Shown here in pieces: positions 34,764 through 35,674 of a DNA stretch of 36,047 bases (its first letter is position 1; every line of letters starts with the position of its first letter). Origin of the DNA: an uncultured Lachnospiraceae bacterium (lineage in GTDB: Bacteria; Bacillota; Clostridia; Lachnospirales; Lachnospiraceae); NCBI GenBank assembly GCA_902776305.1, contig CACYPS010000030.1, positions 1 through 36,047 of the forward strand, in the 5' to 3' direction. Made by a program: the position numbers and the translations under genes. Under the pieces are notes generated by a model. The model did no database searches and was not told the DNA's origin. It saw only the letters and a list, made by a program, of their open reading frames with translations.

Positions 34764-34834
34764 GCAGGTATAGTTCATCGGTAGAACACGACCTTCCCAA
34801 GGTTGAGAGGTGGGTTCGATTCCCATTACCTGCT
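34764..34834 (+). tRNA. tRNA-Gly (anticodon CCC)
   Basis: The acceptor GCAGGTA pairs with TACCTGC, D arm GTTC/GAAC, anticodon stem CGACC/GGTTG encloses TTCCCAA with anticodon CCC (reads GGG), and T arm GTGGG/CCCAT. 71 nt, no encoded CCA. It has its own promoter and terminator. Confidence 0.95.
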
Positions 34835-34840
34835 CGTGAG

Positions 34841-34876: not shown

Positions 34877-34951
34877 TGTGTTGGGGTATGAGTTTCTTCC
34901 TATATATAGTGGGGAGAAATGGGGAGGGGGTACAATATATAGGGGAAAAGA

Positions 34952-35190
34952 AAGTAAATTTCTTAAGTGGTACAGCTAAGCAGTCTCATCATAAAAAAAT
35001 GCATCGTCGGGACGCTTGCGCTCGGTCTCGCTTGCGCTCGGTCTCGCTTGCGCTCGGTCTCGCTGGCAGCGGTACTAATAAAAATTCATCGCTGAAGCTC
35101 GAATTTTTAAAGTACCGGCCGCTCGACGACGCCCTCCGATCGCATTTTTAATGATTCGACTGCACTGTAGTATGGAGCTATGTAGAAATT
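34952..35190. repeat. Structured duplicated repeat, copy 1
   Basis: Near-identical to 35240-35446. It contains three tandem 16-bp units CGCTTGCGCTCGGTCT (35013-35060). An inverted repeat follows: GGTACT plus TAAAAATTC (35071-35087) against GAATTTTTA plus AGTACC (35101-35116), loop 13 nt. The plus-strand ORF that crosses it is translated repeat, not a supported gene. The family is probably dispersed in the genome. Confidence 0.85.
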
Positions 35191-35239
35191 TACTGGGGGA
35201 GTGGTGGAAAGCTCACGGCGGAGTTTAGGATAAAAAAAT

Positions 35240-35446
35240 AGTAAATTTCTTAAGTGATACGGCTGAGCAGTCTCATCATAAAAAAATGCATCGTCGGGAC
35301 GCTTGCGCTCGGTCTCGCTGGCAGCGGTACTAATAAATTTTCTGCGCCGTTGGCTTGAAAATTTAAAGTACCGGCCGCTCGACGACGCCCTCCGATCGCA
35401 TTTTTAATGATTCGACTGCGATGTAGTATATAGCTGAATAGAAATT
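35240..35446. repeat. Structured duplicated repeat, copy 2
   Basis: Same order of blocks as copy 1, but only one 16-bp CGCTTGCGCTCGGTCT unit. The stem arms are changed to TAAATTTTC (ending 35342) and GAAAATTTA (from 35357) so that all nine pairs are kept. The loop (14 nt) is unrelated to that of copy 1. Confidence 0.85.
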
Positions 35447-35459
35447 AGCCAATTTATCG

Positions 35460-35488: not shown

Positions 35489-35563
35489 AATTGAGCATTA
35501 GCAGTGCACGAAACAGCAGTTATGGGGTCACCTAAGATCCCTTGACAAGGCGGTTCGGACTTT

Positions 35564-35651
35564 GGAGAAGTACTCAAGAGGCCGAAGAGGCGCCCCTGCT
35601 AAGGGTGTAGGTCGGGTGACCGGCGCGGGGGTTCAAATCCCCCCTTCTCCG
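35564..35651 (+). tRNA. tRNA-Ser (anticodon GCU)
   Basis: A class II tRNA with a long variable arm: acceptor GGAGAAG/CTTCTCC, anticodon stem CGCCC/GGGTG with loop CTGCTAA (anticodon GCT, reads AGC/AGU), variable stem GGTCGGGTGACC, T arm GCGGGGG.../CCCCC. 88 nt with G discriminator, no encoded CCA. Confidence 0.95.
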
Positions 35652-35674
35652 TTTCGGATTTAGTAAATCCAGGG

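Follow-up and report, generated by a model that had tools for sequence, protein, structure and literature searches.

Bacterial MITEs such as QMITE2 of Coxiella are described as short, intergenic sequences with inverted ends and target repeats, whose transcripts are predicted to fold (PMC10969869). The same MITE review credits BOX and SPRITE of Streptococcus pneumoniae with riboswitch-like or terminator-like folds (PMC10969869), and it is this description of folds that likens them to the element reported here. In the Bacillus cereus group, bcr1-bcr3 are interspersed MITE-like repeats located in UTRs and operon gaps; bcr1 is reported at a mean of 39 copies per strain and as restricted to that group (PMC3446304, PMC6542083). 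The GTAG- and CGTC-tagged REPs are palindromes present in many copies and characterized by conserved unpaired motifs, the CGTC type being described without a known transposase (PMC3733652). REPs measure 20-40 bp. The element considered here spans ~160 bp or more in its complete form, with 200-240 bp for the window copies, and is set apart further by terminal repeats and target duplications. The main text of the REP paper contains neither 'firmicutes' nor 'clostrid' (PMC3733652).

The present element shares with MITEs generally a short length, terminal inverted repeats, target duplications and an intergenic location. It is unlike them in that one folded core occurs on differing ends and with differing duplication lengths, across a family and, as the genomes are labelled, into another class, and in that no partner transposase was found for it. 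The bcr1-bcr3 repeats are set apart from it by their description, bcr1 being confined to the B. cereus group. Compensatory changes are a feature of bcr1 too. In kind the element is a MITE; its novelty lies in a core common to elements with different ends, in its wide distribution and in the pattern of the arms. No published description of it was found in the open-licence literature, mostly among top-ranked matches. The reading favoured here, with moderate confidence, is that of a non-autonomous, MITE-like mobile DNA palindrome with a conserved folded core.

The window, that is, the whole stretch of 36,047 nucleotides that was analysed, harbours two tandem copies of an imperfect palindrome of 200-240 bp, spaced 287 bp from start to start. 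The copies, their parts and their neighbours are as follows.

34764-34835, + strand: tRNA-Gly (CCC), upstream neighbour outside the element (ARAGORN, Rfam)
34953-35194, + strand: hairpin element copy 1, from the sequence; outer ends AGTAAATTTCT (34953-34963) and AGAAATTTACT (35184-35194)
35013-35067, + strand: three units of the 16-nt repeat CGCTTGCGCTCGGTCT in copy 1, with mini-hairpin P1a (GC[UUGC]GC); direct repeats
35071-35116, + strand: core of copy 1, GGTACT (35071-35076) and AGTACC (35111-35116) around helix P3 TAAAAATTC/GAATTTTTA
35240-35446, + strand: hairpin element copy 2, from the sequence; right end partly lost (AGAAATT)
35300-35322, + strand: one P1a unit only in copy 2; direct repeats
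35326-35372, + strand: core of copy 2, GGTACT (35326-35331) and AGTACC (35367-35372) around helix P3 TAAATTTTC/GAAAATTTA
35563-35652, + strand: tRNA-Ser (GCT), downstream neighbour outside the element (ARAGORN)

The inner stem is fully paired in both copies, with nine of nine pairs: the arms lie at 35079-35087 and 35101-35109 in copy 1 and at 35334-35342 and 35357-35365 in copy 2, and two adjacent A-T pairs are swapped between the copies. This compensatory swap had been pointed out in the first-pass annotation and is borne out, as are the near-identical flanking blocks (89-93% identity between the copies over long blocks) and the position between two tRNA genes; the rRNA operon mentioned there would lie past the end of the window. 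The loops, described there as unrelated, appear by eye not to be wholly so. The inner stem was correctly recognized, but it is not the whole palindrome, which extends beyond it over nearly the entire length of each copy. Folding of copy 1 (34951-35197) and copy 2 (35238-35450) gives z values of -4.42 and -4.38 relative to dinucleotide shuffles, with none of 200 shuffles as good in either case, and the reverse strand of copy 2 folds with a z of -4.97. Both copies are matched by the covariance model described below, copy 1 with 67.4 bits and an E of 2.3e-20 (L001 1286-1424, equivalent to window 35023-35161) and copy 2 with 79.5 bits and an E of 1.2e-24 (L001 1539-1681, equivalent to window 35276-35418). 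No ORF of at least 100 aa overlaps the window copies and no target duplication is seen at them; their only inverted ends are the outer pair listed above, incomplete in copy 2, and the usual ends are missing. Rfam returned no match to the element at gathering score in the window and 11 further loci: the window gave the two tRNA matches only, and the matches obtained for the 11 loci at an E-value threshold all lie far below the gathering scores. The P1a unit of copy 1 is tripled in tandem with a 16-nt period, resembling microsatellite-like growth within the element.

A DNA search detected at least 52 matching pieces in the own genome, with 40 of the 71 candidates scored. Scanning of 47 own-genome loci gave 30 distinct copies whose core could be read. 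All nine pairs of the inner stem are Watson-Crick in 27 of them, and the count rises to 28 if one copy with a single G-U is admitted; the inner-stem pattern is therefore no chance pair. Broken stems, which according to the first-pass annotation would have spoken against selection if common, are rare among the own-genome copies that retain the core (3 of 30 fall below nine Watson-Crick pairs). The 5' strand of the stem is TAAATTTTC in 13 copies, TAAAAATTC in eight and GAATTTTTC in five, which together account for 26 of the 30, with four single versions. Beyond this genome, related DNA was detected by DNA search in 10 of the 61 genomes searched, own included, all belonging to one genus. The core pattern GCAGCGGTACTAA...AGTACCGGC gave at least 113 stretches, corresponding to at least 80 loci (L057-L136). 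Among the matches listed, most of these loci are titled Lachnospiraceae or other Clostridia, including Eisenbergiella tayi, Oribacterium sinus and Butyrivibrio, while one is labelled Selenomonadaceae and one Muribaculaceae. Viral contigs gave no match to the core pattern, and plasmids and phages no blastn match to the element.

The fold that these copies share runs, from 5' to 3', through a long stem P1, a mini-hairpin in CGCTYNCGCT, a helix P2, a bulge AGC opposite G, GGTACT paired with AGTACC, AA and the helix P3. It was assessed on two alignments. The first, A1, was made without structure: 57 less redundant pattern loci were kept, 52 cores were chosen (usual spacing, core under 60 nt, CGCT motif with at most two substitutions, exact GGTACT/AGTACC) and 43 sequences entered the alignment, one per locus, with L085, L088, L111 and L132 set aside by hand. 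The way A1 was assembled fixes the letters of GCAGCGGTACTAA/AGTACCGGC, including GGTACT/AGTACC, and in part those of the CGCT motif. Pairing cells amount to 78.7% in A1 as against 63.9% when shuffled and 34-45% with slid partners, and both-sided changes occur at 26 of 34 pairs. The covariation score of 0.354 (0.140 shuffled) was reached by none of 500 shuffles; the covariation over many genomic copies for which the first-pass annotation had called is thus present, by a score other than R-scape. RNAalifold alone on A1 proposes 16 pairs only, eight of them with both-sided changes. The covariance model R1 was built from the same 43 sequences. The second alignment, A2, comprises 128 model matches, 126 of them distinct, from a search set of 100 hand-picked loci, and as a model-fitted alignment it leans towards structure; pairing reaches 83.8% (62.4% shuffled), covariation 0.483 (0.151 shuffled) and both-sided changes 31 of 34 pairs. 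Removal of three antisense partial matches and of duplicates from the model matches left 123.

The mini-hairpin is the best-kept part of the fold, since in 38 matches from 29 model-found loci CGCTYNCGCT is exact in 35, as against 22 for AGTACC, 17 for AGCGGTACT (26 with at most one substitution) and six for the full search pattern; the starting pattern did not contain the CGCT motif. The P1a pairs show both-sided changes in a few relatives. A pseudoknot between the CGCT of the loop and the AGC bulge was considered and rejected, as neither CGCT pairs consistently: the first box fails in L057 and the second in L105, L119 and L111, the last of these lying outside A1. A mini-hairpin GC[UYNC]GC fits better. 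In five copies (L292, L294, L022, L028 and L106) a stretch of ~50 nt (GCACAGCATAAGTTCGATCACGG...CTTATT), itself foldable, replaces the loop of the mini-hairpin, and L065, L079, L112 and L120 carry extra stretches between the mini-hairpin and P2.

Model R1 extends the distribution to 63 of 294 genomes of the order and 35 of 145 genera, all within the family of the window, with E values down to 1e-29 and at most 11 candidates scored per genome. At the level of the phylum, matches were obtained in seven of 398 genomes: the own genome, three further members of its family, one genome of another class with strong matches (G660) and two with weak matches (E about 2e-4). Two MAGs labelled Selenomonadaceae and Muribaculaceae (G728 and G729, labels as recorded) contain 63 and 90 matches, respectively. 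The strong, many-copy matches in G660, G728 and G729 possibly reflect cross-class transfer, or else wrong labels.

Copies of the own genus end in CTMAAACTTCCCAC and its complement, and the own genome has 53 occurrences of AAACTTCCCAC compared with two of a reversed control. The flanks of many of these copies carry a 7-bp target duplication. In 36 end pairs from the own genome, congeners and the goat MAG RGIG2452 (L006, L022 and L028 counted twice, with alternative ends), the flanks are identical in 10 and match at six or more positions in 14, relative to a null mean of 1.9 and maximum of 7 over 2000 shuffles; the duplication is unclear in the other 22 pairs, and a control shifted by one base is little lower (4.2 vs 4.5 of 7). 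The copies of CE91-St56 and E. tayi have the ends GGGTGYAGATAAAA and 9-bp duplications, with a mean of 6.0 matches as against a null of 2.3 (maximum 3.4) in the 31 of 68 copies in which both ends were recognized. In genome CAJTEN the ends are CAATGTCATTAAG and 10 flanking bp are identical in five of six copies (from 15 loci), but not above shuffles; this 10-bp class is provisional, because its targets mostly share GTTCA and some shuffles do too. The length of the duplication, 7 or 9 bp and 10 bp on few copies, thus varies by lineage. An inverted duplication of host flanks was tried as an alternative and rejected: oriented copies give inverted matches equal to the null (2.06 vs 2.00), and 9-bp direct repeats are found instead. 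End-to-end length is mostly 200-260 bp for the own type, core-less copies being shorter (from 59 bp), 234-345 bp in the CE91-St56 and E. tayi set and 158-189 bp in the set with the 10-bp class. A palindromic motif, GTTACTATTCACGGC and its complement, is located at or just outside the ends of some elements in CAJTEN and of one element in E. tayi (L072, L075, L278); it may represent a favoured insertion target or belong to a separate family of repeats. At L035 the element is followed, from about position 1620 on, by tandem repeats of ~28 nt (GGGAGCCTTCCAGGACCCTGACTGAGAA).

Mobility is indicated by an orthologous site compared for one element, L004, at four loci from 20 congeners. In G003 and G025 the site has no element, only diverged sequence and a terminator-like hairpin, so that the exact uninserted target is unreadable; in G005 and G035 it is taken up by different short elements whose ends are of the same kind. 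Core-deleted and half elements are present both in the own genome and in CE91-St56. Terminal inverted repeats, target duplication, short length without a transposase gene and presence/absence mobility, the features by which MITEs are recognized, are all found here, and the suggestion of a mobile hairpin element made in the first-pass annotation is supported by the terminal inverted repeats, the target duplications and the one empty site. The copies lie largely between genes: eight of 218 are inside a called ORF of at least 150 aa, and incidental reading frames cross some copies. The 177 copies flanked by genes on both sides are distributed over 110 co-directional, 36 convergent and 31 divergent gaps; in the co-directional gaps, 65 copies share the direction of the genes and 45 oppose it (p = 0.07, with crude gene calls). 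At L230 three elements in both orientations occupy two successive gaps of one same-strand gene row.

No related autonomous transposon with the same ends was found in a search with exact ends: pairs of such ends at transposon distance are absent from the own draft genome, and in the complete CE91-St56 there are none besides elements and lone ends. The E. tayi end pattern GTTACTRTTCAYGG yielded one inverted pair, which is one element. Twenty lone ends of CE91-St56 were fetched and are mostly lone or core-less remnants. Three of them (L305, L311, L318) have a weak second end, with 3 mismatches, 1.3-2.2 kb away, and the five proteins scanned there include no transposase, matching Pfam families of other functions. 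A dedicated gene between paired elements was also considered: nine paired-element regions were fetched and ORFs were listed for five (L230, L231, L232, L234, L235), which by eye contain host-type genes or none. An autonomous partner is often missing for accepted MITEs. Its absence therefore counts against placing the element in an IS family, not against reading it as a MITE.

The arms and the core of the element follow different regimes. A 60-nt arm stretch compared in 36 E. tayi copies is identical to the complement of its own opposite arm at a median of 98% (minimum 43%), while its identity to the arms of other copies is 65% (maximum 87%), compared with 60% for shuffled sequence; the cores are 90% alike (minimum 80%). 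Pair-by-pair selection on long arms, acting via mismatches, is expected to leave more wobble pairs at such divergence. Arms that are near-random between copies and 98% complementary within them point to correction of one arm by the other at the DNA level. Across 68 copies of E. tayi and CE91-St56, 6391 arm columns contain 88 G-U, 58 A-C and 157 other mismatches (L270 failed the anchor and the Ns of L244 are scored as mismatches), G-U accounting for 1.4% of columns. A cruder count over 193 mixed copies gives 229 G-U vs 298 A-C, and isolated mismatches in the same copies give 51 vs 97 raw and 34 vs 23 by unique context. In 15 CE91-St56 copies of exactly 238 bp, 58 cells are compensated and 31 changed on one side (G-U 16, A-C 5, other 10). 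The preference for G-U over A-C among these one-sided changes (p = 0.03) speaks against a process in the arms that is wholly blind to strand.

The core was counted in 81 representatives of less than 70% identity, obtained from 125 clustered matches after three of under 100 nt had been dropped. P2 contains 80 G-U vs 25 A-C (p = 7e-8), an excess also observed in the unfitted A1 (47 vs 13, expected 35 vs 30). The corresponding counts are nine vs seven in P1, 31 vs 30 in outer P1 and seven vs one in the GGTACT helix; P3 has eight vs 27, with 14 of its A-C at one doubtful pair. The wobble regimes thus differ: the arms are symmetric like DNA, whereas P2 is strand-specific like RNA or ssDNA. Copies with different ends share one and the same core, composed of the mini-hairpin, P2, the bulge, the GGTACT/AGTACC-type helix and P3.

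On the favoured reading, a transposase supplied in trans would cut at the element ends, and at replication the palindrome would extrude into a hairpin or cruciform, in which one arm could be rewritten from the other by mismatch repair or template switching. Such copying would account for arms that are free to drift yet remain complementary, and most of the compensatory changes of the outer arms would then be single DNA-level events, because one arm is copied onto the other; the same extruded hairpin may also cause the core deletions observed. Arm correction within the element is inferred from sequence comparison, and against it stands the weak preference for G-U of all arms in the 68-copy count, as would arise from selection on one strand or from strand-biased mutation. 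More tentatively, selection would preserve the core in the form of a single folded strand with a fixed polarity, since P2 tolerates G-U far more than A-C; this could be RNA in read-through transcripts or ssDNA, and RNA possibly offers the more natural form. A bolder version, regarded as speculative and rather doubtful, holds that the core is an undescribed folded RNA or ssDNA module carried by several unrelated transposition systems, under one-strand selection and flanked by self-correcting arms, swapped between different ends, reaching ~90 copies in one genome and crossing classes. A portable core of this kind might make operon insertions harmless or recruit a shared host factor.

Three other explanations have to be weighed against the mobile palindrome. 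If the element represented a structured RNA gene of a new class or a cis-acting RNA, the fold of the transcript would be selected in every copy and covariation would follow. The strong covariation in A1 and A2, the G-U excess of P2 in both the representatives and A1, the few both-sided changes of P1a together with the longer hairpin that replaces it in five copies, and the stretches inserted between mini-hairpin and P2 are all consistent with this. It is nevertheless judged unlikely, given that the E. tayi arms are complementary within copies but nearly random between them, that G-U is scarce in the arms and in no excess in P1, that copies occupy divergent, convergent and co-directional gaps in both orientations, and that several copies have lost the core. 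The undescribed structured RNA proposed in the first-pass annotation may accordingly hold for the core, where P2 shows its G-U excess, but not for the outer arms, which lack strand-specific wobble across families, and it sits poorly with the near-even orientation; similarly, the covariation noted there is real, but for the arms it does not follow from it that the structure is selected.

An improbable alternative is a REP-like element moved by a hairpin-recognizing tyrosine transposase (Y1, IS200/IS605-type) without target duplication. It would suit the high copy number, the intergenic location and the conserved unpaired motifs of the hairpins, but target duplications are not expected of IS200/IS605-type transposition and those of 7 and 9 bp are present here, nor is a transposase seen by eye between paired copies at the five loci. 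That the palindromes are unrelated MITEs, alike by chance or convergence and with no common core function, is very improbable: lineages do differ in ends and duplication lengths, yet a model built from 43 sequences recovers a common fold from 63 of 294 genomes and 90 times from a single one, and 35 of the 38 matches at model-found loci carry CGCTYNCGCT unaltered, although A1 itself required the motif with at most two substitutions.

If the mobile palindrome is the correct reading, mobile hairpins of one family are widespread among Lachnospiraceae, and a conserved core is combined in them with transposon ends of different kinds. The family would also be a naturally occurring example of long stems with strong 'compensatory' covariation, probably owed to DNA-level arm correction, and hence a trap for covariation-based discovery of RNA genes, in which arms and core can be compared under two regimes within one element. 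Two further features of arms and core were noticed by eye. The 5' arms of E. tayi copies (e.g. L185, L195 and L248) look very rich in pyrimidines (CCGCCCTGCCC...), and the palindrome by itself does not account for this strand asymmetry. In the congeners G034 (L038, L047, L056) and G036 (L039, L048, L055), the interval between GGTAC and GTACC seems to form two hairpins in place of one, as in a junction with more arms.
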